Of a stretch of DNA of 64,000 nt, positions 17,763 to 39,631 are shown one piece after another (position 1 is the stretch's first letter; every line of letters starts with the position of its first letter). Source of the stretch: Microbacterium invictum. Its GTDB lineage: Bacteria; Actinomycetota; Actinomycetes; Actinomycetales; Microbacteriaceae. Both the position numbers and the translations under genes were made by a program. The notes under the pieces are model-generated. The model ran no database searches. It had not been told where the DNA came from and saw only the letters and a list, made by a program, of their open reading frames with translations. Location of the stretch: the NCBI RefSeq assembly GCF_014197265.1, contig NZ_JACIFH010000001.1, forward strand, positions 1,922,001 through 1,986,000. Direction: 5' to 3'.

Positions 17763-19484
17763 CTACATGTCCGAGGTCGCGACGGCCAGGTTGGTGAGGA
17801 AGGCCACAGAGCTTGGACGCGGTTCAACATCCCCGGCGAGCATTGCACCCATCCATTCGCGTTCGATGAAGTCCAGCGACGCGAGCGTGGACAGGAGATC
17901 CGGATTCGCGCGCCAGTGAGTGACGACCTTTGCCGCGAGGATGTCCCCTCCCGCAGGTGGTCGGTTACCACGGCGCACGCGCTGAAGTGACTTTCGCACG
18001 AAGCGCTTGCCTGTGCTCAGCGTCTGTGCGACAGGCTGCCATGGCGACGGGTCTGCATAGGCTGCCGGCGCAGGCCTACCGTCGAGCGGCATGGCACCGA
18101 GTTCAGGGTCGAGTGCCATCTGCAACGACGCGAGGAAACGCGAACCTGCTTTGTCCTGCGGACTCAGCCGCGCCGCGATCTCAAGGAAACCGCGATCGAG
18201 CATGGGATTGATCACGATCCGTTGTGCGCTAACGGCTGTGTCAGTGGCTCCCGCCCAGCGCTGCATCCGGTGACGCAGATACAGCTCATCGGTCGCGCGG
18301 AACCACTCGTCGCCACCCGCCTGCAGCGCTTCGAATACTTCCCCTTCGGCTGCGTCGCGCGCCCATGCGGAGAACTCGTCGGTCAGCAGTCCAGGCTCGA
18401 CGGACTCGTTCACGAACATCCGCCATGACGCGAGGCGTGACGCGTCCTTTCTCGTGTACGAACGGTCCACGACCCTTCCGACGTAGTAAAAGCCACGCGC
18501 AACCTCGCCACCTAGCCCCGAGATGCGCACACCCTGCGCGAATGATCGCTCTCCGATACCTAGTGCGGCGAGCGCGACCGGATCCGACATCGCGTCAAGC
18601 CGTATAGAAGCCTCGACGCAGAGGCGCCAGGCATCGGCAGGGCTCACGCCGTCAACGCTCGCCAGGTCTCGCACGTCATGCTCGAGCCCATACCGCGCGG
18701 AGATCTTCGCGGCGATCGAGACGTCGCCGCTCCCCGGAACGCCAAGCGTCATCGCGCGCAGCCCGCGCCGTCGTGACGGGGGGATCGCGCTGAGCAGGAG
18801 TCGAGAATCGAGGCCTCCGGTCAGTTGCAGGACGGCGTCAGGGTGATCGTCTAGGAGAGCCGCCAGAGATGTCCGTAGCAGCGTCGCTGCCTCCGCCACC
18901 GCATGTTCGACCCCCAAGGGATCATGGCTATGGCGTGCACCGTCTTCGACCGCGACCGGGCCACTATCGAGGCGGGCGACGGCCCCCGGGACGAGCTTCT
19001 CGACATCCTCGAAAAGCGTCCGTCGCCCGAGCTGCCAACCCAGTAGCGATTGGTTCCCGACCGCGACCTTGTCCAGCCCTGTCCCCCGCGCACGTCCGGC
19101 AGCCAGTGCCGAACTCGACAGAGCAGCGTTGCCGCCCGCCCCGGGTGCAGTGTGGAAGAGCTGCCGGAACCCCATCGAGTCGGCGACCATCGTTGTGCCG
19201 TGTTGATCATGGTGCATCGCTGCGAACGGAGGAAGAAGTCGTGTCAGGTTCACCGGTCCAGTGCGCATCTGGTCAGCGACAGCCATCAGTTCCACTGCCC
19301 CGCTCGACGTGCGAACGACGGGTGACAAGACGAGGACTTCAGAGAACCCGGCCGGGCTGCCCCAGCACCCTACGGCGAACTGGGTGCCCGCGACACGCGC
19401 GATCGGTGACCCGAAGTGCGAATCAGGCAGAGGCGCCGTCGAGGCGATGAAGCCCGGAAGCTCCGGGGAGTCCACGTGAGTCAC
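17763..19484 (-). CDS. asparagine synthase-like protein
   Basis: A protein of about 573 residues with the two-domain plan of glutamine-dependent asparagine synthetases, but diverged. The PP-loop ATP-pyrophosphatase motif is clear (VLQLTGGLDSRLLLSAI, SGGxDS type). The N-terminal half resembles an Ntn amidohydrolase domain but lacks the N-terminal Cys expected for glutamine hydrolysis. Proteins of this type are common in exopolysaccharide clusters and might amidate a uronic acid or amino acid decoration. The start is uncertain: GTG 19484 has CAGGAG 11 nt upstream, while GTG 19475 and GTG 19625 are also in frame. It is divergent from the GMC oxidoreductase. Confidence 0.75.
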   Translation of the reverse strand: MTHVDSPELPGFIASTAPLPDSHFGSPIARVAGTQFAVGCWGSPAGFSEVLVLSPVVRTSSGAVELMAVADQMRTGPVNLTRLLPPFAAMHHDQHGTTMVADSMGFRQLFHTAPGAGGNAALSSSALAAGRARGTGLDKVAVGNQSLLGWQLGRRTLFEDVEKLVPGAVARLDSGPVAVEDGARHSHDPLGVEHAVAEAATLLRTSLAALLDDHPDAVLQLTGGLDSRLLLSAIPPSRRRGLRAMTLGVPGSGDVSIAAKISARYGLEHDVRDLASVDGVSPADAWRLCVEASIRLDAMSDPVALAALGIGERSFAQGVRISGLGGEVARGFYYVGRVVDRSYTRKDASRLASWRMFVNESVEPGLLTDEFSAWARDAAEGEVFEALQAGGDEWFRATDELYLRHRMQRWAGATDTAVSAQRIVINPMLDRGFLEIAARLSPQDKAGSRFLASLQMALDPELGAMPLDGRPAPAAYADPSPWQPVAQTLSTGKRFVRKSLQRVRRGNRPPAGGDILAAKVVTHWRANPDLLSTLASLDFIEREWMGAMLAGDVEPRPSSVAFLTNLAVATSDM

Positions 19485-19677
19485 AGCTGGCGGTGCTCCT
19501 GACCAAGGATGCGCGGGATGGGCTCGGAGGCCTGCGGGATGGTGTCTGACTATCAGTACTATATGGCCAGGGAAGCTCGCCGTGGCATTCGAGTGTTCGG
19601 TACCCGACGCGACGTGACAGACCACTTCGGACGTGCGCTCACGGGTATCGAGATGATCGCAAAAGAGGAGCGCAGAA
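19485..19677. promoter_or_regulatory. divergent promoter region (asparagine-synthase-like / GMC oxidoreductase)
   Basis: About 190 bp between divergent starts, noticeably richer in A/T around 19,545-19,570 (tactatatgg) than the flanking genes, as expected for promoters. The minus gene could start at 19625 and occupy part of it. No specific operator was found. Confidence 0.4.
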
Positions 19678-21358
19678 GTGATTATTGACGCTCGCCGCAG
19701 GTTTCCGTCTACGCTCCCGCACTCCGACGTCTGCATTGTCGGAGGCGGACCGGCGGGCATCTCACTCGCGCTTCAACTCGAAGAGCGCGGGCATACCGTC
19801 CTATTGATCGAGTCGGGCGGAGTACGTGAGACGGAACGATCGCGGGACTTCAACAGAGGCAGTGCCGACCCGGTCGACAGCCATGAACCCCTAGACGAAA
19901 ATCGGCGTCGGCAGTGGGGCGGGGGCCTCCGCTGTTTGGGGCGGCCGCTGCATCCCCTTCGATGCTGTGGATTTCGAAGAACGCCCCTGGGTGCCATTGA
20001 GCGGATGGCCTTTTCCACGAGAACATCTGACCCGCTACCTCAAAGTGGCCATGACCCTGTGCGAGGCGGGTACGTACTCCTTCGACGCGAGGATGGCGCG
20101 CTCTGCCACGCCAGAGCTCTTCCCCGGGCTTGATGGCGACGGCATCGTGACCTATCCGCTTGAGAGGTGGAGTCCCCCCACGCATTTTGGTAAACGCTAC
20201 CGTCGCCGCATGGCGTCGTCGAGTTCGATCAGTGTGCTGCTCAACGCGACGTGCACACACATTCAACTGGCGGCGAGCGGCCAATCTGTTGATCACATCG
20301 TGGTCAACAGGACCATGGACGATAGCCGGGCGGTGTACGCTCGCCGATTTGTACTCGCCGCCGGCGGATTAGAGAATGCACGCCTCCTGCTTTCGGCCGA
20401 CGACGTCGCACCGACCGGCGTCGGAAACACCACCGATTGTGTCGACCGCTTTTACCAAACGCATGTATTCGGCTGCTTTGCCTCTGTCCAGCTCAATCCC
20501 GGCTCTCCGCGTGCGCACGTCGCGTTCGACCGAGACGCTCAGGGTGTCTATTTCAGACGGCGAATCTGGTTCACGCCGGACGCTCAGGAGCAGCATCAAG
20601 TGTTGAATACTGTCTTCTTCCCCGTCCGGCCGCCCACCGGCGCGACGGGACACCGAAGCGCGCTTTTCTCGGGCGTCTATCTCGTCAAGATGTTGCTCGC
20701 TGCGGCACGCCGTCCCACAAAAGCAGCCTCGTTGCTCCGTGACGAAAAGGAGTCGGTCAAGAGTCACGCGGCGGTGTTCTTTCGCCATCTCCCCAGCGCC
20801 GTGCCCGAGCTCTACCGCGCTTTCAGCGGGCGGTACATTGGTACCCGACGTCTTCCCGCGGTTCTTCCTGCAGATGGGCTCTCTTCCTATCACCTGCAGT
20901 TTCAAGCCGAACAAGTGCCGAACGCCGATGCTCGAGTGACGCTTGGGCAACGCCTCGATGACCTAGGCATGCGACGACTTGTAGTCTCACCGTCATCAAC
21001 TGCACTCGACATCGAGAGCGTTGTTCGGACGCACAAACTGCTCGACGTGCGTCTGCGGTCGTCCGGTCTTGGCAAGCTGGTGTTCGACGAAGATGAGCTC
21101 AGACGATCGATCGAAGACGCCATGGTTCATGTCAATTCAGGCGCCCATCACATCGGCACCACTCGGATGTCTGACGACCCGACTCGGGGTGTCGTTGATC
21201 GCAACTGCAAGGTTCACAACATCGACAACCTCTACCTGACAGGAGCGTCGGTCATGCCGACGTCCGGGCATGCCAACCCCACATTGACGATCGTGGCGCT
21301 GGCGATCAGGCTGGGAGAGCATCTGGCCGAGTCCACCCACGGCGCTTCAACCCGCTAG
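19678..21358 (+). pseudogene. GMC-family oxidoreductase, interrupted by a 1-nt frameshift
   Basis: FAD-dependent glucose-methanol-choline oxidoreductase. The N-terminal Rossmann motif is SDVCIVGGGPAGISLALQLE with IESGG at the end of strand 2. The C-terminal FAD and active-site part is HHIGTTRMSDDP...NLYLTGASVMPTSGHANPTLT. The N-terminal frame (from 19678) and the C-terminal frame (open to 21358) differ by one base. Removing one T from the TTT at 19935-19937 restores a family-typical RCWGGRCIPFDAVDFEERPW and joins everything into one frame of 559 residues. As written, translation from 19678 stops at 20133. A true mutation or an assembly error are both possible. The gene converges with the aldo/keto reductase; their 3' ends overlap by 12 bp. 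Enzymes of this type in glycan loci may oxidise a sugar hydroxyl; the substrate is unknown. Confidence 0.88.
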
Positions 21359-21670: not shown

Positions 21671-21715
21671 TCCTTCTGCCGCGTGGCCAATCACACGGCA
21701 GAAGGAGTGATTCGG

Positions 21716-24824: not shown

Positions 24825-25085
24825 TCAGGCGAGCTTGGCGTCCACGAAGCTGCGCAGCGAGCCGACCGTCTCGAACAGCTCGGCGCCGAACTCGTCATCG
24901 TCGATCGTGATGTCGAAGCGGTCTTCGATTGCGCCGACGAGGGCAACGACGCCGAACGAGTCCAACTCGGGCAGCGCACCGAACAGGGCAGTGTCGGGTT
25001 GCAGCTCTTCGGGGCGCTGCGACAGCTCGAGGGCTTCGATCAGCACGGCGCGCACAGCGCCGAGGGTATCGGTATCGGTGGTCAT
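24825..25085 (-). CDS. acyl carrier protein (stand-alone)
   Basis: An 86-residue acidic helical carrier protein. The phosphopantetheine site is Ser43 in ALPELDSFGVVAL (the usual DSL has become DSF), followed by IEDRFDITIDDDEF, the helix III region of ACPs. It carries an acyl or aminoacyl group as a thioester. It sits 15 bp after the PLP decarboxylase gene, which itself overlaps the AMP-ligase gene, so the three are clearly one functional unit and not fatty-acid synthesis. The same trio occurs in exosortase-associated glycan loci of other bacteria. It needs a phosphopantetheinyl transferase encoded elsewhere. Confidence 0.88.
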   Translation of the reverse strand: MTTDTDTLGAVRAVLIEALELSQRPEELQPDTALFGALPELDSFGVVALVGAIEDRFDITIDDDEFGAELFETVGSLRSFVDAKLA

Positions 25086-25100
25086 CGATTCTCCTTTGTG

Positions 25101-26324
25101 TCAGACGAGGACTTCGGCCGGCGCGGGGTGGCCGAGGAACGCGGTGGGGCTGGCGGTGAGCCCGTAGGCCCCCTGCTGGAAGATGACGATGAGGTCGTCG
25201 ATGTCGGCATCGGGCAGTTCGATGTCGTCGCCGAGCAGATCGAGCGGCGTGCACAGGCAGCCGACGACGGTGACGGCGTCGGCGCCGACCAGCGCGGCAC
25301 GGTTGCCCACGGCGACGGGATAGTTGCGCCGGATGGCCTGACCGAAGTTTCCGGATGCCGCGAGCTGATGATGCATGCCGCCGTCGACCACGAGGAACGT
25401 CTTGCCGCGCGAGACCTTACGGTCGACGACACGCGTGACGTAGACGCCGCATTCGCCGACGAGGAATCGCCCGAGCTCGATGACCGGGCTCGCCTCGGGA
25501 AAGCGTTCGGCGATCGGACCGTCGACGAGGTCGTGAAGGTTCGCGGCGACGGTCTCGAGGTCGAGCGGCTGGTCCTTCTCGGTGTACGGGATGCCAAATC
25601 CGCCGCCGAGGTTCAGGTAGCGCAGGGGGCCCGGCAGGTGGGCGGCGAGTTCGGTGACGAGGTCGACGGTGCGGCGCTGCGCTTCGGCGATGATCTCGGC
25701 GGTGAGGTTCTGCGAGCCGGCGAAGACGTGGAAGCCGATAACATCGACCGATCCGGCGAACTCCATGAGTGCAGCCGGAACTTGCTCGGCGTCGATGCCG
25801 AACTGCTGGGGTCCCCCGCCCATGCGCATGCCCGAGCCCTTGACCGCGAAGTCCGGGTTCACCCGAACGGCGATCTGCGGCTGCAGGCCCAGCTCCTCCC
25901 CCGCGGCCACGACGCGGCGCAGCTCGGTCGGCGACTCCACCTCGACGATGATCCCCGCCGCGACCGCCTGACGGATTTCAGCGGGCGTCTTGCCCGGCCC
26001 CGCGAAGCTCACCCGGTCGGGCCGGATCGTCGAGTCGAGCGCGTGCTGCATCTCGCCCGCCGAGGCGACGTCGATGCGGTCGACCCGGCCGGCGAGGTGT
26101 TGCACGATCGCCGGCATCGGGTTGGCCTTCATGGCGTAACTCAGTTCGACGCGGGCCGGAAGCAGCCGGCGCAGCAGGTCGACGCGAGCGTCGAGCAGCC
26201 CCCGGTCGTAGGCGAAGAAGGGGGTCGTGCCCACCCGCGCGGCCACTCTGCTGACCGGCATTCCGCCGAGGCGGAGTTCGCCGTCGACGGTGCCGAATGA
26301 GGCGACGTGTTCGTGGGGTTTCAT
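25101..26324 (-). CDS. PLP-dependent decarboxylase, fold type III (DAP/ornithine decarboxylase-like)
   Basis: A 407-residue alanine-racemase-fold decarboxylase. The PLP lysine is Lys66 in LSYAMKANPMP. The glycine loop is LNLGGGFGIPY, and ELGRFLVGECGVYVTRV matches the conserved EPGR-type segment. The C-terminal VVGCLCTPLDLLGDD supplies the Cys and Asp of the other subunit's site. It is not the core diaminopimelate enzyme: it resembles the decarboxylases found next to an AMP ligase and an ACP in exosortase-type glycan clusters, and the BtrK type that decarboxylates an amino acid held on an ACP (butirosin pathway). The substrate is probably an aminoacyl-S-ACP. It overlaps the ligase gene by 4 bp. 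Confidence 0.87.
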   Translation of the reverse strand: MKPHEHVASFGTVDGELRLGGMPVSRVAARVGTTPFFAYDRGLLDARVDLLRRLLPARVELSYAMKANPMPAIVQHLAGRVDRIDVASAGEMQHALDSTIRPDRVSFAGPGKTPAEIRQAVAAGIIVEVESPTELRRVVAAGEELGLQPQIAVRVNPDFAVKGSGMRMGGGPQQFGIDAEQVPAALMEFAGSVDVIGFHVFAGSQNLTAEIIAEAQRRTVDLVTELAAHLPGPLRYLNLGGGFGIPYTEKDQPLDLETVAANLHDLVDGPIAERFPEASPVIELGRFLVGECGVYVTRVVDRKVSRGKTFLVVDGGMHHQLAASGNFGQAIRRNYPVAVGNRAALVGADAVTVVGCLCTPLDLLGDDIELPDADIDDLIVIFQQGAYGLTASPTAFLGHPAPAEVLV

Positions 26325-27883
26325 GCCGATACCTCTGATGCTATGCGTGGACGGTCGAACTTGCCGTTGGGCGACCGGGGCAGATCGTCGCGGATGTCGA
26401 CCCGCGCCGGCAGCATGTACGCCGGCAACAGGGGACGCAGCGCAGCGATCACGGCACCCTCGTCCAGACCCTGACCCGCCGACGTCACCACCAGCACGAT
26501 GCGCTGGCCGAGCGCCGGGTCATCGACGCCGATCGCGACGACGTCGCGGACGAGGCCGGTGCTATACGCCGCCTCCTCCACCTCGGTCGGGCTCACGCGG
26601 TAGCCCGAGGTCTTGATCATGTCGTCGGCGCGTCCGACGAAGGAGAGGAACCCGTCGTCGTCGGCCACGACGGTGTCACCGGACCAGACCGCCAGTTCGG
26701 GAGCGCGCCAGTCCTGCCCGGGGTGATGCACCGGGCGGAACCGCTCGGCGGTGCGCTGCGGGTCGTTCCAGTAGCCGAGTGCGACGAGGGCGCCCCGGTG
26801 CACGAGCTCGCCGTGCTCACCGGGCGCGCACGGCGTGCCATCGGGGCGCAGCACGAGGACCTCCGCGTTCGGGATCGCCTTGCCGATCGACCCGGGGCGG
26901 CGGTCGACCTCGGCGGGATCGAGATAGGTCGAGCGGAATGCCTCGGTCAGTCCGTACATCAGATACGGGGCGGCCTCGGTGAAGATGCCACGGAGGGCGT
27001 CGAGGGTCGGCCGCGGCATCCGCCCGCCGGTGTTCGCCCAGTAGCGCAGCCGACCGGCGGTCTCTTCGGGCCACGGAACCGCGGCCAGCTGCAGCCACAG
27101 CGGGGGCACGCAGGTGAGTCCCGTGACCGCGTGCCGCTCGCACAGCTTCACGACGTCGCGGGGCAGCAGGTAGTTCATGAGCACGCAGTGCGCGCCGACG
27201 GCGAGCGCGGTGGTGACCTGGCTGAGGCCGGCGTCGAAGCTCAGTGGCAGGACGCTCAGAATGACATCAGCACTGGTGTTGTGCAGGTAGGTGCTGACAC
27301 TCTCGGCGCCGACGATCAGGTTGCGGTGGCTCAGCACGACTCCCTTGGGTTTGCCGGTGCTTCCGGAGGTGTAGAGGATGGCCGCCGGGTCCATGTCGAT
27401 CGCCGCCGACGGGGACGGTGTCCCGGCAGCGGTCTGCCCGTCGTTCCACCCGTGCACGCCGTGGTCTCCGGATGCCGGGGGCACGGCGTCGCCGACGATG
27501 ACGACCTGCGCGATCTCGGTGCCGGCCAGCACGGTCGCAAGCTGCGCCAGCCGGTCGGTGGAGGTGATGAGGATGCGGGCGCCGCTGTCAGAGAGGATGT
27601 GGCCGACCTGGGCGGGCTTGAGCACGTGGTTGATCGGCACGAATACGCCACCTGCCGCCGACGTCGCGAAGATCGCGGCGACGGTCTCAAGTCGCTTCTC
27701 GAGGTAGATCGCGACGCGGTCGCCACGGCCCAGCCCGATCGCCTGCAGCTGTGCGGCCGCCGCCGACGCCGCCTGCCAGGCCTGGGCATACGTCTGGGTC
27801 ACCGCTTGGTAGGTCAGCGCCGGGTCGTCGGGATGCGACGCGGCACGCTGTGCGAGCAGGTCGTGGACGTGCGTCCGGGTCAT
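26321..27883 (-). CDS. AMP-forming acyl/aminoacyl ligase (ACP-loading)
   Basis: A complete 520-residue ANL ligase. It carries LYTSGSTGKPKGVVLSH (phosphate loop), YLMYGLTEAFRSTYL (adenylate site), WSGDTVVADDDGFLSFVGR and ADDMIKTSGYRVSPTEVEE (hinge). LPRSPNGKFDRP holds the catalytic lysine of the C-terminal lobe. It activates a carboxylic acid with ATP and probably loads the ACP encoded two genes downstream. It resembles the acyl-CoA ligases tied to exosortase-A-type systems, yet no exosortase or PEP-CTERM protein is seen here. It overlaps the GT4 gene upstream and the decarboxylase downstream by 4 bp each. The true substrate (amino acid or diacid) is unknown. Confidence 0.9.
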   Translation of the reverse strand: MTRTHVHDLLAQRAASHPDDPALTYQAVTQTYAQAWQAASAAAAQLQAIGLGRGDRVAIYLEKRLETVAAIFATSAAGGVFVPINHVLKPAQVGHILSDSGARILITSTDRLAQLATVLAGTEIAQVVIVGDAVPPASGDHGVHGWNDGQTAAGTPSPSAAIDMDPAAILYTSGSTGKPKGVVLSHRNLIVGAESVSTYLHNTSADVILSVLPLSFDAGLSQVTTALAVGAHCVLMNYLLPRDVVKLCERHAVTGLTCVPPLWLQLAAVPWPEETAGRLRYWANTGGRMPRPTLDALRGIFTEAAPYLMYGLTEAFRSTYLDPAEVDRRPGSIGKAIPNAEVLVLRPDGTPCAPGEHGELVHRGALVALGYWNDPQRTAERFRPVHHPGQDWRAPELAVWSGDTVVADDDGFLSFVGRADDMIKTSGYRVSPTEVEEAAYSTGLVRDVVAIGVDDPALGQRIVLVVTSAGQGLDEGAVIAALRPLLPAYMLPARVDIRDDLPRSPNGKFDRPRIASEVSA

Positions 27884-29208
27884 GGAGCCCTCCGCTCTCG
27901 AAGGTAGCGGCCGAACTCAATGTCGTCACCGAGCGGAACGTATCGTCGCCCCTCCGCGTCGGCGTCTCTGACCTGATCGACGGCCGGGACTGCCGGACCC
28001 GACTGCGAGTACCCCGACAACTGGTCGAAGACGGCGACATAGGCCTCGGCCTGCGGCCGCCAATCGAGCACGCTTGCCACCCGCTCACGCGCCCGACGGC
28101 CGATCTCAGCACGGCGACCCGGGTCGTCAGCCAGCGACTCCACCGCGTCGGCGAACGCCGCGATGTCGCCCGAGGGGACGTACTGCACGCAGTCGTCGCC
28201 CGACACCCGCGTCTCGGTGAGATCGAACGACACCGATGGAAGTCCGTAGGCCATGTACTCCATCGTCTTGTTCATGGTCGACACATTGTTGAGCGGCGTA
28301 TTCAGATCGGGGCTCAGCCCGATGTCTGCAGCGCTGAAGTGCTCGGCGAGAACCACCCGATCGACGCGCCCGGTGAAGGTGACGTGTGCGTCGAGGTCGA
28401 GCTTGGTCGACTGCGACTTGAGATCTTCCAGGCAGTCACCGAACCCGAGCAGCTTCACCCTGATATCGGTGCGACCGCGTTTGTGGACGAGCTCGTCCAT
28501 CACGAGCAGGATCTGATCGACGTCGTCTTGCGGACCCATGATGCCGACGTAGGCGAGGTTGATGGTGCCCTCCGGATGCGGGTGCTGAGGGTAGATGGGA
28601 CGCATCTGCTCAGTGTCCGGGCCACTGCGCACTACGGTCACGTGGCCGGGCCGACGGTCACCGCGACGAACAGCAATGGCTTTGTACGACTCGTTCGTGG
28701 AGATGATGCGATCGGCAGCGCGGAAGGTGCGACGCTCGAGCCACACCAGCCCGCGATACTCCAGGTTCTTGAGGACACCGTTGGGTTGACCGAACCGCGA
28801 GATGAACAACTCGGGGTTGAGATCGTGGTGGTCGAACACGAACCGCACCCCGAACGGCCGCCACAGCAGGGCGAGCAGCCAATAGGTGTCGGGCGGGTTG
28901 CACGCCTGGATGATGTCGAAGCGTGCGCGGCGGCGTGCCGCGAGTGTGAGCCATGCGGTGCGCACCCAGCTGTATGCGAACTCCCAGACGAAACCGAGAA
29001 GACCTCGCGCCTCGGGTGCGGGCCGGTACTTGTATATGTCGACACCGTCGATGTGCTGACGTGCTGGATCGCCAGGCCCCTTCGGACAGATGACGCTGAC
29101 CCGATACCCCCGCGCGATGAGCGCCTGGCATTCGAGCCAAACGCGCCGGTCGAGTGGGACTGGCAGGTTCTGCACGATGATCAGGATGTGTGGCGCGAGC
29201 TTCGTCAT
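27880..29208 (-). CDS. glycosyltransferase family 4
   Basis: A 442-residue GT-B glycosyltransferase. It begins MTKLAPHILIIVQNLPVPLDRRVWLE, and its N-terminal half carries VFDHHDLNPELFISRFG, typical of the actinobacterial GT4 type near sugar-nucleotide genes. The donor half has LAYVGIMGPQDDVDQIL and NTPLNNVSTMNKTMEYMAYG with a conserved Glu. ATG 29208 overlaps the upstream gene's stop; the open frame extends further but that part is antisense to coding sequence and Arg-rich. The acidic C-terminal 40 residues are unusual. The sugar is unknown. Confidence 0.88.
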   Translation of the reverse strand: MTKLAPHILIIVQNLPVPLDRRVWLECQALIARGYRVSVICPKGPGDPARQHIDGVDIYKYRPAPEARGLLGFVWEFAYSWVRTAWLTLAARRRARFDIIQACNPPDTYWLLALLWRPFGVRFVFDHHDLNPELFISRFGQPNGVLKNLEYRGLVWLERRTFRAADRIISTNESYKAIAVRRGDRRPGHVTVVRSGPDTEQMRPIYPQHPHPEGTINLAYVGIMGPQDDVDQILLVMDELVHKRGRTDIRVKLLGFGDCLEDLKSQSTKLDLDAHVTFTGRVDRVVLAEHFSAADIGLSPDLNTPLNNVSTMNKTMEYMAYGLPSVSFDLTETRVSGDDCVQYVPSGDIAAFADAVESLADDPGRRAEIGRRARERVASVLDWRPQAEAYVAVFDQLSGYSQSGPAVPAVDQVRDADAEGRRYVPLGDDIEFGRYLRERRAP

Positions 29209-30416
29209 ACCCCGTACACCTCTTCCTCGATGATTCGGACGACCGCTTCCTGAGTGGGTACCCATGAGCGGCCGACCACCGATGCTGCGGCTTCGTGAGC
29301 CCTCTCGTCGACATCGGCGGCGGACACCGCTTGACCCAATTGACTGGCGAGTGCTTCCCCCGTCGGGTCTGCCCAACGCACATGTGGATTCGCGAGCACG
29401 AGGTGGGCCGCCGCCAGATCGTTTACGACCGGGATATTGCCGGCCGCGAGCATCTCTTCCGCCACCAGTGTGATGTTTGTGAACGACATGGCCAGACCAG
29501 CAACGGTCCGGCCGTACAGCGAATTGAGCTCCGCGGTCGTCAATCGGCCATGGAAAGTGTGGGGCACGTCGAGGCCGCGTGGGGCGGCGCCGTAGACGTG
29601 TATCTCCTGGTCGGGGTGCGACTGGTGAAAAAGCCTCAAGGCGACGGCAGCGATCTGATAGCCGCGCCGAGCGAAATCCGGGCGCGAGAAGAACACGATC
29701 CCACTTCTGCGGGTTCCTGCAGGAGGCGGACCGTATACGGATGAGTCACAGCCAAACGGCACCAGATCGGTGGTGACGCCGGTCTGGTCACGGATCATGT
29801 GGTCCAGCATCTCCCCCAAAGCAATCCGTCGGAAGGGCAGGCGATACGTCATCGCCGCGAGCTCATACTCGGCACCGTGGCCATAGAAGAATGGTTCATA
29901 GTCTTGGATGAAATACAGCCGTCGCACTGGTCCTGCCGCATAACGCGCCACAAGGTGGACAGTTTCCCAGCCCGAGGCGACGATCGCATCGATCTTGCCG
30001 GCCCCGTGCGTGATGTCCCGCACCTCCGCTCGCAGGCGAGGCCAGTGTTCCCGGACGACGTCGGCGCAGGCGTTGACGTTCAGCCCATGCTTGTCATACA
30101 GGTAGAGCACGCAGCGGTGGCCGCGCTGTTCGAGCGCTTCGACCATGCGAAACAGCGTGGTATGTCCACCGGAGCCCGGTGCCGGCGGGGTGCAGACCCA
30201 GGCGATCGTCAGGATCGCTCCGTTCTCCGGTCGTTCTTCAGGCACGGGAAGCGAGTCAGGGACGGCGGTGAGGATGTCCTCGAAGGAGAGGTTGAACGAA
30301 AGTTCCGCGGCACCCGTCTTCAGATACAACCGTTGCGCCAATCGCTGAGCGATGCCGGTCAGTCCGACCTTTCGTGCTCGCTTCACCTTGGCAGAAAATC
30401 CGGTCAGCGCGCTCAT
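29205..30416 (-). CDS. glycosyltransferase, WsaF-like (rhamnosyltransferase family)
   Basis: A 403-residue GT-B protein with the features of WsaF-type rhamnosyltransferases. It has VCTPPAPGSGGHTTLFRMVEAL, YFIQDYEPFFYGHGAEYELA, LVPFGCDSSVY and a donor half with VFFSRPDFARRGYQI and MSFTNITLVAEEMLAAGNIPVVND. WsaF from Geobacillus adds beta-L-rhamnose to S-layer glycans. Family membership suggests rhamnose here, but specificity varies. The start is ATG 30416. It overlaps its neighbours by 4 bp on both sides, in mid-operon. Confidence 0.85.
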   Translation of the reverse strand: MSALTGFSAKVKRARKVGLTGIAQRLAQRLYLKTGAAELSFNLSFEDILTAVPDSLPVPEERPENGAILTIAWVCTPPAPGSGGHTTLFRMVEALEQRGHRCVLYLYDKHGLNVNACADVVREHWPRLRAEVRDITHGAGKIDAIVASGWETVHLVARYAAGPVRRLYFIQDYEPFFYGHGAEYELAAMTYRLPFRRIALGEMLDHMIRDQTGVTTDLVPFGCDSSVYGPPPAGTRRSGIVFFSRPDFARRGYQIAAVALRLFHQSHPDQEIHVYGAAPRGLDVPHTFHGRLTTAELNSLYGRTVAGLAMSFTNITLVAEEMLAAGNIPVVNDLAAAHLVLANPHVRWADPTGEALASQLGQAVSAADVDERAHEAAASVVGRSWVPTQEAVVRIIEEEVYGV

Positions 30417-31810
30417 GAGGTCTCCTTCTCGCTTAGATCCTGAGCCGTAGCCCCATCCATCGAGACAGCGACCTCGCGGAGCAACGCGGCGTGACCCTCT
30501 GTCATCTCATGCATGAGCGCGTGAATCGGCTGTGTTGGTGGCCGGTCTCCGTTGCGGACGCGCGCGGCTACAGCTGTGATTGCCGCACCGAGTTCGTTGG
30601 CATTCGCTTGCCGCCTACTACGCCGTCGCGCCCTCGCGACCACGGCATCGGAAACATCTTCGGCGGAACCGCATGCGTTAGCGACCAGCACGGAGTGCGC
30701 GGGGTCTCGCGCCACGAGTTCGCGAGCACCACCGAAGTCTGCGAGAACCAGGGGAAGTCCCATCGCGGACGCTTCAGTGGCTGCCACGGGCCAGCCCTCG
30801 AAGAAGGAATCGAGCACAAATCCGTCGGCTGCCGATAGCAATGAACGCGCATCAGAGGATGCCAGCAGGCTGACGCGTCCGGCATGACGACTGCAGCGAC
30901 GGATCGCATCAGCTCGACGGACCTCCGCCCAATCTGATGGCTCGCCTGCCACGACGAGGCGGATGCTCCGATCCTCGACCGACGACAGGAACGACGCGAC
31001 AAGGCCCGCCAGGTTCTTCTGCGAATCAAACCGGGCCAAACACACGAAGACGACGTCATCACCCAGGTCTGTTCTCAGAACTTCGGCAAGTCGAGCCCTG
31101 GCCGTCTCTCGCTGCTCGCGACTCGGGGTAACCGCCCCCGCCGGAATCGCATTGCCTACGACGCGAATGCGGTCGCCGAGCGACGGTGGCAACTGCTTGT
31201 AGTGATAGGCGCGAACCGTCTCGCTCACCGCGATGGCGGCGGGGGCCGCCGCAAGCAGTCGGGCAAGACGCCGCCATCGCGCCCGTGAGTGGTGGATCTC
31301 CATGTTGTGCAAGACAGGAATGAACGGGATCCCTGAGGCGATCGCGGCTTCCTCAAGGCTCTCGGGCGCGCCATGCAATTGGATGACCGACGGCGCGAGG
31401 TCACGAAGCACTTGGCGGGCGTCGAGGTCGGTGCCGACGACGACGACCTTCAATCCGAGCCCGCGCAGACGATCCGCTCGTGTTCCGGAGTGCGTTGTGA
31501 CGATCACCGGACGGAGACCGGCCGATGACAGGGCCGCCGCGAGGATCTCCACTACCGAGCCGATGCCCCCCACGTCCATCGAACCGGTAAGGAGCGCGCA
31601 ACTCACTGGCGCCTCGCCTGCTCCGATGGCTGGCATGCGTGGTTCGGAGAGCCTCACGACGCTCGGGAGGAAATCGAGCGGTCGCGCGAGAAATCGCCGC
31701 GTGATGCGGTGCACATACCCGTAGCGGATGCGTGGCGGGAGAAAGTCGCTGCATGTGACGACGGCACCGAAGAGCGCCGCCGCCGCGTGAACCCGCGCTT
31801 TAGCGATCAA
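30413..31810 (-). CDS. glycosyltransferase family 4 (TTG start)
   Basis: A 465-residue GT-B transferase. SCALLTGSMDVGGIGSVVE opens the acceptor half. The donor half has VFVCLARFDSQKNLAGLV, VVAGEPSDWAEVR and LDSFFEGWPVAATEASAMGLP with the E-x7-E pattern. The frame is open for a further 560 codons upstream, but that stretch is antisense or out-of-frame to the Wzx gene. TTG 31810 overlaps the Wzx stop as TTGA and has GGAGG 6 nt upstream, which decides the start. It is coupled on both sides and builds the repeat unit. Sugar unknown. Confidence 0.85.
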   Translation of the reverse strand: MIAKARVHAAAALFGAVVTCSDFLPPRIRYGYVHRITRRFLARPLDFLPSVVRLSEPRMPAIGAGEAPVSCALLTGSMDVGGIGSVVEILAAALSSAGLRPVIVTTHSGTRADRLRGLGLKVVVVGTDLDARQVLRDLAPSVIQLHGAPESLEEAAIASGIPFIPVLHNMEIHHSRARWRRLARLLAAAPAAIAVSETVRAYHYKQLPPSLGDRIRVVGNAIPAGAVTPSREQRETARARLAEVLRTDLGDDVVFVCLARFDSQKNLAGLVASFLSSVEDRSIRLVVAGEPSDWAEVRRADAIRRCSRHAGRVSLLASSDARSLLSAADGFVLDSFFEGWPVAATEASAMGLPLVLADFGGARELVARDPAHSVLVANACGSAEDVSDAVVARARRRSRRQANANELGAAITAVAARVRNGDRPPTQPIHALMHEMTEGHAALLREVAVSMDGATAQDLSEKETS

Positions 31811-33390
31811 TGCTGACCTCCGATTCGCGCTATCAGCGGCAGCCTCGCTCCTAGACGAGTGCGCGCGACCATCGAAATCGCGTCGACGAGCACGGGCCGG
31901 GCTGTGAGCAGACTCACCGCCAGATGCACGATGGTGACGGTCAGGCCAACGAGCACCAGGGCAAGAACTCCTGGGAGCTGGGCGGTAAGCATCATGGTTC
32001 CCCAGCCGGCTCCGCCGGCAATCGCGACGACCGAGATGAGGAAGAGGAAGGGTCGCAACAGCACCTTGGGTCGCACCGACAATGCTCGGCCGACAAGAAA
32101 CCATCGCGCGACCGTGGCAACCGTCGCCACCCCGAGAAACCCTGTCGCGATCGCGACGAGGCCCCACCGTGCCGTCACCATCGTGGTCGCCAGCGTCACG
32201 GCATCGGTCACGAGAGCATAGACAAACCACGTACCCGGCTTCCCGATGCCGTAGAACAATCCGTGGTCGAGCCAAGCCGCCACCGAAAGCGTACCGGCGA
32301 GCGCAAGCACCTGGGCAACGGGGATGCTCTGGCTCCAGCCCGCACCGAACAAGATCGGGACGATCAGCGGCGCCGCGACTGCGACCAAAGTCAATGGGAG
32401 GGAGAGCACCAGGTAGACGAGCCTGAGAGCACGCAGATACGAACTGCGCAGTCTCTCCGCGGATTCCCTCACCTTCGCGAACGCGACGTTCGTGACGGGG
32501 ACGATCGCACTGCCGGTGAGATCCTGCACGATCTGCACGAGTCGCTGCGCCACGCTCATGAACCCGAGCGCCGCCGCTCCCAGCACGGCGGAGGTTATCG
32601 CCGCCTCGCCCCAAGCGCGCGTCATTGCGACGAACTCGACGCCAAGCACCTTCCCACCGAAAGTCGACAGTCGGCCGAACTCTGTGCCGGCAAACGACCA
32701 CCGCGGCCGCCATCCGGCGGTGACCCAGATGAGAATCGTCGATACCGCCGCTCCCACGAGGGTCTGTGCCACGAGGGCCCAGACCCCAAACCCGGTGAAT
32801 GCCAAGATCAGCGCGACGATCTGGGCGATGACCGCCGCGGCGGCGCCTTGTGCTGCTATGACGGCAAAACGCATCTGCCGGCGGACGATCGCCGTGGGCA
32901 CCGAGCCGACCGCCGTGATGACGACCCAAATCGAGAGTGCCTGCAGCACGGGTGCCACTGTCTCGTTGCCGAAGACCTGGCCCATCAGCGGTGCCCCGAG
33001 CCAGAGCAGACCGCACAATACAATGCCCGCAACGAGCGAGAACCAGAAGGCCGTGCTCAACATCCGCTCTGTCGTCTTTGCAACCTGCACAATGTACGCG
33101 GCAAAGCCGAGGTCCGCGAGGAGATAAAAGAACGGAAGGACCGTCGAAGCCGCAGCGAGGGTGCCGAAGTCCTCCGGTGCCAGCAAGCGGGTCAGGATTG
33201 CGATCGTGACAAAGCTGAAGAGACGGACCACCCATTTCTGAGCTGTAAGCCAGAGCACCCCGCCGGTTGCGGCACGACCGACGTCCGTTTGCGGACGCAC
33301 AGTCGCGTCGGTGTCGATCGATGCGACGATCGCAGTCTCGACGGCCCATGACTCCGCTGTCGATGGGGCTGTTTCCCGGTCGTCGCTCAC
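31807..33390 (-). CDS. Wzx-type polysaccharide flippase (PST/MOP superfamily)
   Basis: A 527-residue membrane protein with about 13-14 helices after a polar N-terminus of 40 residues. GGVLWLTAQKWVVRLFSFVTIAILTRLLAPEDFG is the classic start of the polysaccharide-transport family. It is predicted to flip the lipid-linked repeat unit across the membrane, supplying the Wzy-like polymerase at 14.3 kb. The start is GTG 33390, whose GTGA overlaps the stop of the GT4 upstream. It is the only flippase candidate in the window apart from the MFS protein, and this supports a Wzx/Wzy-dependent assembly route. Confidence 0.9.
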   Translation of the reverse strand: MSDDRETAPSTAESWAVETAIVASIDTDATVRPQTDVGRAATGGVLWLTAQKWVVRLFSFVTIAILTRLLAPEDFGTLAAASTVLPFFYLLADLGFAAYIVQVAKTTERMLSTAFWFSLVAGIVLCGLLWLGAPLMGQVFGNETVAPVLQALSIWVVITAVGSVPTAIVRRQMRFAVIAAQGAAAAVIAQIVALILAFTGFGVWALVAQTLVGAAVSTILIWVTAGWRPRWSFAGTEFGRLSTFGGKVLGVEFVAMTRAWGEAAITSAVLGAAALGFMSVAQRLVQIVQDLTGSAIVPVTNVAFAKVRESAERLRSSYLRALRLVYLVLSLPLTLVAVAAPLIVPILFGAGWSQSIPVAQVLALAGTLSVAAWLDHGLFYGIGKPGTWFVYALVTDAVTLATTMVTARWGLVAIATGFLGVATVATVARWFLVGRALSVRPKVLLRPFLFLISVVAIAGGAGWGTMMLTAQLPGVLALVLVGLTVTIVHLAVSLLTARPVLVDAISMVARTRLGARLPLIARIGGQH

Positions 33391-34600: not shown

Positions 34601-35704
34601 TCAGCGGACCGTCGCCCGCAGCGTGTCCACGACGCGCTGCTGCTGCGATTCGGTGAGGTGCGGAAACATCGGCAGCGACAGAATACGGTCGGCGGCGGCT
34701 TCGGCCACGGGGAAGGCGCCGCGCACGACACCGAGCGATGCGTATGCCTCGGTGAAGGGAACGGGAGTCGGGTAGTGGATGCCCACGCCGATGCCGGCCG
34801 CACCGAGCTCGGTCATCACGCGATCACGCTCCGCGACGCGGGTGACGTAGAGGTGCCACACGTCTTCGTTGCCGGGACGCACCGTCGGTACGCGGACGCC
34901 GTCGACGCCGGCAAGCAGTTGCGCATACCGGCCGGCTGCCCCCCGACGCGCGGCGTTCCACCCGTCGAGGCGGCGCAGCTTGGCGCGCAGCACCGCAGCC
35001 TGCACCGCATCCAGACGCGCGTTCACGCCGATGCGGTCGTGCACGTACTTGACCGAACTGCCGTGAGCACCGAGATTGCGGACGATGGCGGCGATGCCGG
35101 CATCGTCGGTCATGACGGCGCCCGCATCTCCGGCGGCCCCGAGGTTCTTCCCCGGATAGAAGCTGGTGGCGGCGACCGTGCCGAGTGCGCCCGCTCGTCC
35201 CGCAGCGCTCACGGCCCCCTGCGACTGCGCGGCATCTTCGACGACAATCAGACCGTGCCGTTCGGCGATGGCGGCGATCTGCGCCATCGGAGCCGTCTGC
35301 CCGAACAGGTGCACTGGGACGATGGCACGGGTGCGCGGTGAGATGGCGGCCTCGATGGCATCGGGATCGATCAGCAGGTACTCGTCGTCCACATCGACGA
35401 ACACCGGGACGGCACCGACCCGCGTTGCCGCCTCGGCCGTCGCGATGAAGGTGTTCGCCGGCATGATGATCTCGTCGCCCCGCTCGATGCCCACCGCGCG
35501 GTACGCGAGTTCGAGCGCGTCCGTGCCGTTTGAGACACCGACCACGTGCTGCACACCGATGTAGTCGGCGTACTCGGCTTCGAACGCGTCGACCTCTGGC
35601 CCGCCGATGAATGCGGCGGACTCGAGCTGTCGCTGCCACACGGGCAGAACTTCATCGGTGATCTCAGCCTGCTGTGCGGCCAGATCGAGAAAAGGTACCG
35701 TCAT
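34601..35704 (-). CDS. DegT/DnrJ/EryC1 (WbpE-like) sugar aminotransferase
   Basis: A 367-residue PLP aminotransferase of nucleotide sugars. VSNGTDALELAYRAVGI, PANTFIATAEAATRVGAVPVFVD and VEDAAQSQGAV are present. The internal aldimine lysine lies in SFYPGKNLGAAGDAG, and GVGIHYPTPVPFTEAY is typical of the 3-aminotransferase group (WbpE/FdtB/QdtB). In the known WbpB-WbpE-WbpD route it would aminate the 3-keto group made by the Gfo/Idh enzyme at 38.5 kb, for acetylation by the WbpD-like enzyme at 45.6 kb. The ATG has TGGGGA 8 nt upstream. Confidence 0.9.
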   Translation of the reverse strand: MTVPFLDLAAQQAEITDEVLPVWQRQLESAAFIGGPEVDAFEAEYADYIGVQHVVGVSNGTDALELAYRAVGIERGDEIIMPANTFIATAEAATRVGAVPVFVDVDDEYLLIDPDAIEAAISPRTRAIVPVHLFGQTAPMAQIAAIAERHGLIVVEDAAQSQGAVSAAGRAGALGTVAATSFYPGKNLGAAGDAGAVMTDDAGIAAIVRNLGAHGSSVKYVHDRIGVNARLDAVQAAVLRAKLRRLDGWNAARRGAAGRYAQLLAGVDGVRVPTVRPGNEDVWHLYVTRVAERDRVMTELGAAGIGVGIHYPTPVPFTEAYASLGVVRGAFPVAEAAADRILSLPMFPHLTESQQQRVVDTLRATVR

Positions 35705-35749
35705 GTGTGCTCCCCAGCACTCGTGCGGACACTGCTGCCCGTTCTTGAT

Positions 35750-36376
35750 TCATTTGTGGTCGTGCAATGCCCGCGCGGGTACACCTGCCCAGGTGTCACC
35801 CGCAGGAACATCGTGGAGCACTGCTGCTCCCATGCCGACGGTGGCGCCGGCGCCGATCACAACCCCCTGCCGGACCGCCGCGTTCATGCCGAGGTACGCG
35901 GCCTCGCCCACCCGGACTCCACCGCCGAGGCAGACGCCCGCAGCGAGGGTCGCGAAGTCCTCGATCACGTCGTCATGTGTGATCGTGCAGTTCGGCATCA
36001 GGACGGTGTGGTCTGCGATGACGGCGTCGGCGGTGACGACGACGCCGTCGAGCACGATGCTGCCGAGTCCCACCTCGCTCGTACGCCCGATCTGCGCAGA
36101 CCGTGCGACGAACCGACCGTAGCGCTCGGGGGCGACGCCCTGCTCCCGCAGCCGCTCGACGATGGCCCGGCGACCCGCGCCCGGGCCGATGCAGATCAAC
36201 AGCTGCTCGTCGCGGTCGGCGGCGTCGTCGACTCCGCCGATGACGGATACCCCGCCGACCTCGGTGCCGCGCAGCGACGGGTCGTCGTCGAGGATCCCGA
36301 CGACGCCCGTGATCCCCGCTGCCAGTACTTCTCTGGCCAGGCCGCTTGCCCCCACAAGCAGCAGCCCGGCACTCAT
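35750..36376 (-). CDS. NeuD/PglD-family sugar O/N-acetyltransferase
   Basis: A 208-residue acyltransferase. The N-terminal Rossmann-like sugar-binding part (LLLVGASGLAREVLAAGI ... ICIGPGAGRRAIVERL) is followed by a left-handed beta-helix of hexapeptide repeats (IVLDGVVVTADAVIADHTVLMPNCTI...). The general-base His lies in the CTITHDDVIEDFATLAAG segment. PglD acetylates the 4-amino group of a UDP-sugar. Its gene overlaps a second DegT aminotransferase, so the pair probably makes an acetamido-4-amino sugar. Acetylation of another position is possible. Confidence 0.85.
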   Translation of the reverse strand: MSAGLLLVGASGLAREVLAAGITGVVGILDDDPSLRGTEVGGVSVIGGVDDAADRDEQLLICIGPGAGRRAIVERLREQGVAPERYGRFVARSAQIGRTSEVGLGSIVLDGVVVTADAVIADHTVLMPNCTITHDDVIEDFATLAAGVCLGGGVRVGEAAYLGMNAAVRQGVVIGAGATVGMGAAVLHDVPAGDTWAGVPARALHDHK

Positions 36377-37521
36377 GCGGGAGCCTCGGGCAGAGGATCT
36401 CGCAGGACGGCGATGACGCGATCCTGATCGGCCTCGGTGAAGGAGTGGTAGACGGGCAGGATCAGGGTGCTGTCGGTGACCCGCTCGGTCGCCGGAAGCG
36501 ACCCGTCCACGGCGAGATCGCGGTACGGCGGCTGGCGATGCGCCGCCATGATGCCGCGCCGCGCCGAGATGTCGGCCCGGGCGAGCGCTTCGAGCAGCCC
36601 GTCGCGATCGGTCGGGTATCCGCGCTCGACCTCGACCCAGAACGACTGCACGTTGCCGGTGCCGTACTCCGGGTCGGCCACCGGCCGCAGCCCGGCGATC
36701 TCGCGGATCGCGGCCCGGTAGCGCGCCGCGATCTCGCGACGCCGACGCACGATCTCGGGCAGCCGCCCCAGCTGCACGAGGCCGACCGCGGCCTGCAGAT
36801 CGGTCATGCGGAAGTTGTAGCCGACCTCCGAGTACTCTTCAGCGGGCGGAAGCACCGAACCGTGGCGGTCGGCCGCCGAGACGGTCATCGCGTGCTCGCG
36901 CAGGCGCCGCGCGCGTTTGGCCCAGTCGCCGCGCGTCGTCGTCAGCATCCCGCCCTCCCCGGTGGTGAGGAGTTTGCGGGGGTGGAACGACCAGGCAGCG
37001 ATCGTCGCGCCCGCCCCCACCGGGCGACCCTTGTACGTCGAACCGGCGCCGCACGCGGCGTCTTCGATGACGACGATCCCGAACATGTCGGTGGCGCTGC
37101 GCACGTCGTCGATGTCGACGGGCACGCCGCCCTGATCGACGGCGATGACCGCCTTCGTCGACGACGTGATGACCAACCGCACCGTCTCGCCGGTGATGTT
37201 GCCGGTGATCGGATCGACATCGGCGAACACCGGACGCGCACCGACGTACCGGACGGCGTTGGTGGTCGCGATGAACGACAGCGACGGCACGACGACATCG
37301 TCGCCGGGACCGACGCCGGCGACGATCAGCGCGAGGTGCAGCGCCGTCGTGCAGCTCGAGGTCGCGACGGCGAACGGCGTCTGCATCGCAGCGGCGAACT
37401 CCTGCTCGAACTGCGCGACACGAGGGCCCTGGGCGACCCAGCCGCTGGCGATGACTTCGGCGACTGCCTCAGCTTCTTCGCGGCCGAGCCAGGGGACCAT
37501 CACATTGATGCGCTCGCTCAC
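36373..37521 (-). CDS. DegT/DnrJ/EryC1 (PglE/PseC-like) sugar aminotransferase
   Basis: A 382-residue PLP-dependent sugar aminotransferase. VMVPWLGREEAEAVAEVI opens it, followed by ATSSCTTALHLALIVAGVG, VIEDAACGAGSTYKG and the PLP lysine in WSFHPRKLLTTGEGG. It also carries YSEVGYNFRMTDLQAAVGL. This set is typical of the 4-keto-sugar aminotransferases paired with PglD-type acetyltransferases. It overlaps the PglD-like gene (ATGA) and the epimerase gene. No clear 4,6-dehydratase of the PglF type is in the window, so the keto-sugar must come from the neighbouring SDR or from elsewhere. Confidence 0.88.
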   Translation of the reverse strand: MSERINVMVPWLGREEAEAVAEVIASGWVAQGPRVAQFEQEFAAAMQTPFAVATSSCTTALHLALIVAGVGPGDDVVVPSLSFIATTNAVRYVGARPVFADVDPITGNITGETVRLVITSSTKAVIAVDQGGVPVDIDDVRSATDMFGIVVIEDAACGAGSTYKGRPVGAGATIAAWSFHPRKLLTTGEGGMLTTTRGDWAKRARRLREHAMTVSAADRHGSVLPPAEEYSEVGYNFRMTDLQAAVGLVQLGRLPEIVRRRREIAARYRAAIREIAGLRPVADPEYGTGNVQSFWVEVERGYPTDRDGLLEALARADISARRGIMAAHRQPPYRDLAVDGSLPATERVTDSTLILPVYHSFTEADQDRVIAVLRDPLPEAPA

Positions 37522-38516
37522 GCGGTCACCGCCACGCGGCCGGCCGCGATCTCCTCACGCAATGGTCGCCACCACTCCACCAGCTGTCGCAGCCCCTCCT
37601 CCACGCCGATGGTGGCCTCGAACCCGAGGTCGCGCTGGGCGGCACGGGTGTCGGCGAGACGCCGCGCAACGCCGTTCACCGCACGCTCGGGGCCGTGCTC
37701 GACGCCGAGGTGCTCGGCGCCCATCACCCGCAGCAGTGCCTCTGCGAGCTCGAGCAGGCTCGTCTCGGTTCCGCTCGCGACGTTGTAGGTGCCCTCGACG
37801 ATGTCGCTGCGGGCGGCCAGCACGTTGGCGCGTGCGATGTCGGGGACGCAGACGAAGTCCATCGTCTGCTGCCCGTCACCGAAGATCAGGGGCGGCTTGC
37901 CGTCGACGATGCGCTCCATCCAGCGCACGAGCACCTCGGTGTACAAGCCGTGCACGTCCATGCGCGGGCCGTACACGTTGAAGTAGCGCAACAGCACGTA
38001 GTCGATACCCTGCATGGCGCGGAAGCTGCGGACGAGTCCCTCGTTGAAGGTCTTGGCGGCACCATAGATGGTGTCGTTGTTCTCGTGGTGGTGCCGCTCG
38101 TCGGTCGGGAAGGTCTCGGCCATGCCGTAGACCGAGGCGCTCGACGCGGCGATGAGCTTGCGCACCTTGTGCCGGGCGGCGGACTCGACCACGTTGAAGG
38201 TGCCGTCGACGAGAACCTCCAGCGCGAGTCGCGGCTCTTCCGCGCACTGCGTGATGCGGATGGCGGCCTGGTGGAACACGACATCCTTGCCAGCGGTGAG
38301 GTCGTCGACGAGCCGCGCGTCGCGGATGTCGCCGTCGATCAGCGACACGCGGCCGCTGGCGATCGCGTCATCGAGGTTGGCGAGGCGACCACGGACGAGG
38401 TTGTCGAGCACATCGACGTGGGCCGCGCCCGCATCGAGGAGCTGATCGACGAGAGTCGATCCGATGGTGCCGGCGCCTCCGGTGACCAGGATCTGTCTGC
38501 CTTCGAGCTGGGTCAT
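37518..38516 (-). CDS. NAD-dependent epimerase/dehydratase (extended SDR)
   Basis: A 332-residue NDP-sugar enzyme. LVTGGAGTIGSTLVDQLL is the NAD-binding loop. AASSASVYGMAETF and YGAAKTFNEGLVR supply the catalytic Ser/Tyr-x3-Lys, and LRYFNVYGPRMD is typical of UDP-glucose/GlcNAc 4-epimerases and 4,6-dehydratases. It probably acts as epimerase (or dehydratase) on a UDP-GlcNAc derivative. The gene overlaps the Gfo/Idh gene and the DegT gene by 4 bp each. Confidence 0.85.
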   Translation of the reverse strand: MTQLEGRQILVTGGAGTIGSTLVDQLLDAGAAHVDVLDNLVRGRLANLDDAIASGRVSLIDGDIRDARLVDDLTAGKDVVFHQAAIRITQCAEEPRLALEVLVDGTFNVVESAARHKVRKLIAASSASVYGMAETFPTDERHHHENNDTIYGAAKTFNEGLVRSFRAMQGIDYVLLRYFNVYGPRMDVHGLYTEVLVRWMERIVDGKPPLIFGDGQQTMDFVCVPDIARANVLAARSDIVEGTYNVASGTETSLLELAEALLRVMGAEHLGVEHGPERAVNGVARRLADTRAAQRDLGFEATIGVEEGLRQLVEWWRPLREEIAAGRVAVTA

Positions 38517-39580: not shown

Positions 39581-39631
39581 GCCTCTCCCCAGTTGCATGT
39601 GGCCGCTACCGGCCTGTTTGATACATCTCGG

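Follow-up and report, generated by a model that had tools for sequence, protein, structure and literature searches.

In vicenistatin biosynthesis, VinN loads the amino-diacid 3-methylaspartate onto the stand-alone acyl carrier protein (ACP) VinL, where VinO decarboxylates it, according to the accessible part of PMC11284099. Likewise, the accessible part of PMC12186527 describes AfcQ, AfcK and AfcP, with which L-aspartate is loaded in vitro via its side-chain carboxylate and decarboxylated to β-alanine on the carrier. We analyzed a 64,000-nucleotide stretch of DNA from Microbacterium invictum (contig NZ_JACIFH010000001.1, positions 1,922,001 to 1,986,000; termed the window), taken from a genome that consists of one contig of 3,580,260 bases. 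In this window, three neighboring genes encode an amino-acid-adenylating ligase (LIG), a fold-III pyridoxal phosphate decarboxylase (DEC), and a stand-alone ACP. We think it reasonably likely that this trio, along with a polysaccharide deacetylase and a predicted tandem-GNAT acyltransferase (GNAT) encoded in the same window, forms a five-gene module that puts ω-aminoacyl groups on a glycan. Gene identity, linkage, co-occurrence, the predicted fold, and the signature residues were established by computation.

In the proposed pathway, LIG would adenylate the side-chain carboxylate of L-glutamate or L-aspartate and load the residue on the ACP, and DEC would strip the free α-carboxylate from the tethered residue to yield 4-aminobutanoyl- or β-alanyl-S-ACP. 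The deacetylase would take the N-acetyl group off a sugar of the growing unit, and the tandem GNAT would move the ω-aminoacyl group from the ACP to the resulting free amine before polymerization. The outcome would be a glycan with a flexible primary amine, zwitterionic if a uronic acid is also present. We infer the first two steps from characterized relatives and analogues, and the last two from linkage and fold.

The ligase, decarboxylase, and carrier protein

LIG scored 718.5 bits against TIGR03098 (curated cut-off 592.35) and DEC scored 557.1 bits against TIGR03099 (curated cut-off 478.45), so both pass; these exosortase-associated families are curated as hypothetical equivalogs only. The closest solved relative of the ACP is 2lki (65 bits). 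LIG and DEC overlap by 4 bp and DEC is separated from the ACP gene by 15 bp, and this tight packing on the minus strand, together with the coordinates and family scores, confirms the claim of an earlier note on this DNA that the three genes are coupled. The arrangement is conserved: in 63 of 78 loci with the GNAT gene (GNAT loci), LIG, DEC, and ACP were all present within the fetched flank, and in 60 of these 63 whole-trio loci they lie on the same strand within 4 kb. For the 11 GNAT loci without DEC in the flank, all 10 genomes checked have TIGR03099 over the cut-off. In Mycobacterium sp. NAZ190054 (L121, 9986-12800), GNAT, LIG, and ACP lie together with no DEC between them, and the DEC of this genome that passes the cut-off is at G697:C582.

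DEC is of the fold-III type, with PF02784 and PF00278 domains. Its best PDB matches are structures of BtrK (249 and 247 bits), named in the PDB as L-glutamyl-[BtrI acyl-carrier protein] decarboxylase, and the best diaminopimelate decarboxylase reached 148 bits. The C-terminal motif of DEC is CTP, as in BtrK and 6knh, with CET in 2p3e; CTP is found in all 75 GNAT-type and all 28 exosortase-type DEC sequences compared. Since TIGR03099 is related to LysA, and DEC scores 232.6 bits against TIGR01048, the diaminopimelate decarboxylase family, one could suppose that the substrates of DEC are diaminopimelate, ornithine, or lysine in free form and that LIG and ACP work as an independent pair. Nevertheless, DEC is not a TIGR01048 member, with a score under the cut-off of 297.9 and CTP instead of CES; the CES motif is carried by a separate LysA-like homolog of the same genome (168.7 bits). 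Taken with the BtrK-like best match and the conserved trio arrangement, this makes a free-amino-acid decarboxylase highly improbable. The assignment to the BtrK type made in the earlier note therefore holds, and DEC, judged by its sequence, probably acts on an ACP-tethered substrate.

The stand-alone PDB enzyme closest to LIG by score is VinN (3WV4, 3WV5, and 3WVN), although multidomain synthetases score higher, and LIG carries an FD motif like that of non-ribosomal peptide synthetases. When 92 ligases were aligned (75 GNAT-type and 17 exosortase-type, duplicates kept and the window LIG included), residues D217, R317, and K508 of the window LIG proved invariant. D217 is the amino-binding Asp and K508 the catalytic Lys, and R317 was matched to VinN Arg331 by a count that starts at the TE motif and takes the loop to be shorter by one residue than the GrsA loop. 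This shorter loop is described for VinN in the accessible part of PMC11253843, which gives K330/R331 as key pocket or loop residues, and in the AfcQ docking model, as far as PMC12186527 is accessible, the equivalent Arg holds the α-carboxylate and so directs adenylation to the side-chain carboxylate.

The pocket code at GrsA positions 236, 239, 299, and 301 is A/S/A/T in 75 of 75 GNAT-type ligases. The 17 exosortase-type ligases (among the stretches L172-L190, described below) have the codes YNTS (10), YSTS (3), and ASAT (4), giving Y and S at positions 236 and 301 in 13 of them. VinN has the bulkier F231 and S299 where the GNAT-type ligases have A (236) and T (301) in all 75 rows, which may indicate a different substrate, and the differing codes of the two ligase branches suggest different amino-diacids. 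Our guess is that the small residue at position 236 (F231 in VinN) favors the longer glutamate. Because of the BtrK-like DEC, the VinN/AfcQ-type signature of LIG, and the VinN and AfcQ precedents, the predicted product of the trio is an ω-aminoacyl-S-ACP, either β-alanyl-S-ACP (from Asp) or 4-aminobutanoyl-S-ACP (from Glu).

A predicted acyltransferase and a deacetylase linked to the trio

The GNAT-like protein had been put forward in the earlier note as a possible partner of the trio, an idea upheld by its predicted fold, its co-occurrence, and its locus linkage, with transfer as its proposed role. The AlphaFold2 model (pLDDT, its per-residue confidence measure, 94.7) predicts a tandem GNAT, and matches to N-myristoyltransferase, Eis, and MAB_4324 share the two-lobe fold over most of the protein, with only 8-18% identity in the rows shown. 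No Pfam or NCBIfam model, GNAT models included, matched the protein at E 0.001. Its start codon is uncertain and the profile match spans 11841-12677. In 32 of the 63 whole-trio loci, the GNAT gene precedes LIG on the same strand at a distance of under 400 bp.

Co-occurrence was scored in 299 genomes of the same family, Microbacteriaceae. TIGR03099 is found over the cut-off in 8 of them (a ninth, G073, is below the cut-off), and the GNAT profile identified the same 8. The window deacetylase is found in 9, i.e. these 8 and G022 (weaker, 40% identity); for GNAT and deacetylase, the counts cover only the best first-look candidates per genome (up to 8 and 10, respectively). Since each of the 8 module genomes represents a different genus and the 5 same-genus genomes listed all lack the module, it is patchy and probably mobile. 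The module is also found in Sinorhizobium, Rhizobium, Mesorhizobium, Bradyrhizobium, Aureimonas, and Devosia, so the system, considered actinobacterial in the earlier note, is indeed present in Actinomycetota but is not confined to them.

Some loci have particular features. Genome G281 has two copies on different contigs (L041 and L042), one of them with LIG and the family 4 glycosyltransferase (GT4) split into several frames, and in G089 another GNAT match, with a lower score, lies at a distance of 25 kb. A 19-kb contig filed as Stenotrophomonas maltophilia P13 (L055) encodes a DEC 85% identical to that of the window; it groups with Microbacteriaceae rows, and the contig is probably contamination.

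Two observations would fit a different role for GNAT, in which it uses acetyl-CoA or another acyl-CoA on the sugar amine or the ω-amine, and another enzyme of the locus, glycosyltransferase-like or asparagine-synthase-like, performs the transfer from the ACP. First, its closest fold matches, N-myristoyltransferase and Eis, are acyl-CoA users. Second, of 27 exosortase-type trio genomes of Pseudomonadota, 26 gave no match to it, and stretches of this type frequently hold α/β-hydrolase-like and FemAB/GNAT genes. However, no other candidate transferase is as constant: GNAT and DEC retrieved the same 8 of 299 genomes in independent searches, whereas most GNAT loci lack a match to the asparagine-synthase-like gene, which the earlier note had considered as an alternative user of the acyl-ACP. 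Clustering placed it in 17 of the 78 and tblastn in 18, and it is thus dismissed as a core part. We consider this different role rather unlikely.

The fifth component, the polysaccharide deacetylase, was absent from the account of the earlier note and would supply the free sugar amine. The window protein scored 80.1 bits against PF01522 (gathering score 23.1) and has the motifs SFDDG and HGWEH (HxxxH). Among 52 clustered deacetylases, motif 1 is present in 48, HxxxH in 52, and R-x-P-aromatic in only 2. Using tblastn (E ≤ 1e-10), we detected a deacetylase in 73 of 78 GNAT loci (51 of 78 by clustering), and in 61 of the 63 GNAT loci with stretches over 20 kb; all 73 positive loci scored at least 219 bits with self-matches excluded. 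In four trio genomes, 20 arbitrarily chosen 20-kb regions gave no match to the same queries. We also searched 19 stretches around Pseudomonadota DEC genes (L172-L190), consisting of 17 from exosortase genomes, the GNAT-type L177, and L178, which is neither. Among these, L177 was matched, as was L175, weakly (57 bits); the L177 genome has the same DEC as L087, which is itself among the query loci.

GNAT-type and exosortase-type lineages

TIGR03099 was found over the cut-off in 30 of 398 sampled Pseudomonadota genomes, 27 of which have an exosortase; the sample was centered on G698, a genome first found by way of its GNAT and counted among the 30. Combining these 30 with 9 actinobacterial genomes, all with a DEC over the cut-off, we found GNAT in 11 of 12 exosortase-free trio genomes vs. 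1 of 27 with an exosortase (Fisher p 8e-8), in 10 of 11 without G698 (p 2.5e-7), and in 9 of 10 when the window genome was also left out (p 8e-7), all values being uncorrected for relatedness. With the exosortase model PF09721, the window genome (3.58 Mb) gave no match even at E values as high as 10, and none of 10 actinobacterial genomes had a match over the cut-off. At the sensitivity of that model, the absence of an exosortase asserted in the earlier note extends to the whole genome.

In a DEC tree of 106 rows, built with a quick method, the 75 GNAT-type rows form one side of a branch with a support of 95 in the Shimodaira-Hasegawa-like approximate likelihood ratio test (SH-aLRT). A Burkholderia row adjoins them, and the exosortase-type rows are not a single group. 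Most GNAT-type rows were found via GNAT, so that branch members without GNAT are under-sampled. The GNAT-type trio lineage stands apart from the exosortase lineage, a point that was absent from the earlier note. More distant LIG/DEC pairs, with DECs about 40% identical and below the cut-off, are found in an actinomycetotal family, f18 (L013-L034 and L193-L195), and L194 and L195 have a short ACP match beside the pair. In three 20-kb stretches of these loci, the GNAT, FemAB, hydrolase, and amidotransferase queries were all unmatched.

The family names, and the proximity of the GNAT branch to some exosortase-type rows in the tree, could suggest a remnant of an exosortase A system that lost its sorting enzyme. 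The PF09721 search of the whole window genome revealed no such remnant, and the GNAT-type DECs form one branch that spans several families of actinobacteria and rhizobia and comes with a transferase and a deacetylase of its own. Because this branch is so widespread and so equipped, it appears to be a stable alternative rather than a recent decay, and with exosortase searches that covered the 10 actinobacterial and the 30 Pseudomonadota genomes, we regard the remnant as very unlikely. On a wider proposal our judgment is evenly divided: that an exosortase-free, horizontally spread five-gene pathway, dedicated to glycan ω-aminoacylation, swaps N-acetyl groups on the surface glycans of bacteria for N-(4-aminobutanoyl) or N-(β-alanyl) via an ACP-bound donor, and that the exosortase trio represents another branch of this glycan chemistry, mostly with another amino-diacid, and not a part of protein sorting.

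The glycan locus and its relation to known systems

The glycan context described in the earlier note is borne out by the Wzx/Wzy-type locus genes that surround the trio (Table 1). The open reading frame of the GT4 glycosyltransferase upstream of LIG overlaps it by 4 bp, and a GT4 gene adjoins LIG in the relatives L035, L036, and L038-L042, but not in L037. Wzy-like relatives were clustered in 51 of 78 GNAT loci, and glycosyltransferases are also frequent neighbors. The asparagine-synthase-like gene lies directly downstream of ACP in L035 and L038-L042. In the window it may be uncoupled from the trio because of an IS21-type insertion between ACP and that gene, which splits an aldo/keto reductase gene into an N-terminal part (24146-24793) and a C-terminal part (21356-21508). 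The asparagine-synthase-like protein keeps an LTGGxDSR motif, weakly resembles a macrolactam cyclase family as well as TIGR03108, and has no glutaminase domain match in Pfam. DUF4082 proteins flank the locus (39632-45514, with five repeats, and 10078-11811), and DUF4082 relatives are found at other module loci as well.

Table 1 Features of the module and of the surrounding locus in the window.
Feature	Position	Strand	Basis and remarks
Amino-acid-adenylating ligase (LIG)	26321..27883	minus	TIGR03098; 520 aa
Fold-III PLP decarboxylase (DEC)	25101..26324	minus	TIGR03099; BtrK-like; 407 aa
Stand-alone acyl carrier protein (ACP)	24825..25085	minus	PF00550; LDSF attachment motif; 86 aa
Tandem-GNAT acyltransferase, proposed transferase	11835..12716	minus	AlphaFold2 fold; trio linkage
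NodB-family polysaccharide deacetylase, which would release the acceptor amine	8983..9633	plus	PF01522
Family 2 glycosyltransferase (GT2) adjoining the deacetylase	7619..8986	plus	PF00535; tblastn to neighbor cluster c281; similarity from about 8114
Wzy-like polymerase/O-antigen ligase	14304..15605	plus	PF04932
Asparagine-synthase-like protein, accessory	17763..19760	minus	PF00733, 22.4 bits
IS21-type element	about 21.58-24.12 kb		IstA 21683-23278; IstB 23275-24021
GT4 glycosyltransferase overlapping LIG	27880..29376	minus	PF13579, PF13692; true start probably downstream
Wzx-like flippase	31807..33390	minus	PF13440, 218 bits
Amino-sugar cluster: DegT aminotransferase, NeuD/PglD-type acetyltransferase, DegT aminotransferase, epimerase, GFO/IDH/MocA oxidoreductase	34601..39598	minus	

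A position within a glycan locus could also reflect shared export or regulation, with the ω-aminoacyl-ACP being used elsewhere, in an oligomer, a small molecule, or a lipid. AfcQ iterates on its own product (accessible part of PMC12186527), and a Burkholderia cenocepacia locus (L053, 13340-16155) encodes a LIG and a DEC that pass both TIGR cut-offs. Its surroundings include acyl-CoA dehydrogenases, an ACP, and a ketoacyl synthase III (KASIII), with no glycan gene among ten scanned neighbors, so that it looks like a small-molecule cluster with the same chemistry. In contrast, GNAT-type loci often carry Wzy-like proteins, glycosyltransferases, and the deacetylase, and no ketoacyl synthase, condensation, or thioesterase family appears among the ten frequent neighbor clusters scanned, making a use outside the glycan unlikely. 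L053 itself was considered as the afc cluster and set aside: its scanned neighbors (acyl-CoA dehydrogenases, KASIII, amidase, and ABC transporter genes) are unlike the afc description, and its ligase, in the reading frame as called, has Arg 324 and Lys 515 (191 apart) vs. 311 and 503 in AfcQ (192 apart), which is not proof since start codons could shift the numbers.

Several points weigh against glycan decoration by the five-gene module. All of its chemistry is read from sequence, a modeled fold, and analogy, and the characterized trios feed polyketides or a lipopeptide, not glycans, in the accessible parts of PMC12186527 and PMC11284099. The VinN Arg position was set by the TE-motif count and not from a structure. 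In the window, GNAT lies 12 kb away from the trio; the tandem GNAT could use acetyl-CoA and cap the new amine instead. The deacetylase has no match in the flank of 5 of 78 GNAT loci, and its target might be a different sugar of this glycan. As to the exosortase contrast, G698, exosortase-free and with a GNAT, was found via that GNAT, and the count drops to 10 of 11 without it; the exosortase-free trio genome G1094 has no GNAT, and its DEC groups with exosortase-type rows; and the exosortase genome G800 has a GNAT homolog about 200 kb from its trio (30-33% identity to two query GNATs, with no trio or deacetylase match in the surrounding 20 kb).

Searches of an open-access library, judged by titles and abstract openings, turned up no account of this trio acting in glycans, nor do passages of PMC12419801 give one. 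In the GNAT branch, these ligase and decarboxylase families are decoupled from the exosortase and linked instead to a deacetylase and a transferase, and a specific chemical prediction follows. If it is true, polysaccharides that carry amines and may be zwitterionic could be recognized from the genome annotation of environmental and plant-associated bacteria, and the enzymes would be a route to a reactive primary amine on defined glycans.

Among the known systems, the exosortase-A trio (TIGR03098 and TIGR03099 with a nearby ACP) belongs to the same families as the window trio, over the curated cut-offs. A Sphingomonas locus of that system has XrtA, FemAB, and a DUF3473 deacetylase, whereas the window has GNAT, a deacetylase of another subfamily, and no exosortase; 13 of the 17 exosortase-type ligases read Y/(N or S)/T/S, and the other 4 share A/S/A/T, the invariable GNAT-type code. 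In the butirosin system (BtrK/BtrI), BtrK is the closest solved decarboxylase to DEC. The butirosin carrier is loaded by another ligase class than that of the window, and the product goes to an aminoglycoside, not to a polymer. The vicenistatin (VinN/VinL/VinO) and fluvirucin (FlvN) systems are related through the Asp and Arg common to VinN and LIG, the VinN product being a polyketide starter, and AfcQ/AfcK/AfcP, from the lipopeptide (AFC-BC11) producer, is an analogue of the window trio only. The tandem-GNAT N-acyltransferases (N-myristoyltransferase, Eis, and MAB_4324) resemble the window GNAT in their two-lobe fold, at the low identity given above. The novelty is the exosortase-free combination of five genes, not any single enzyme type.

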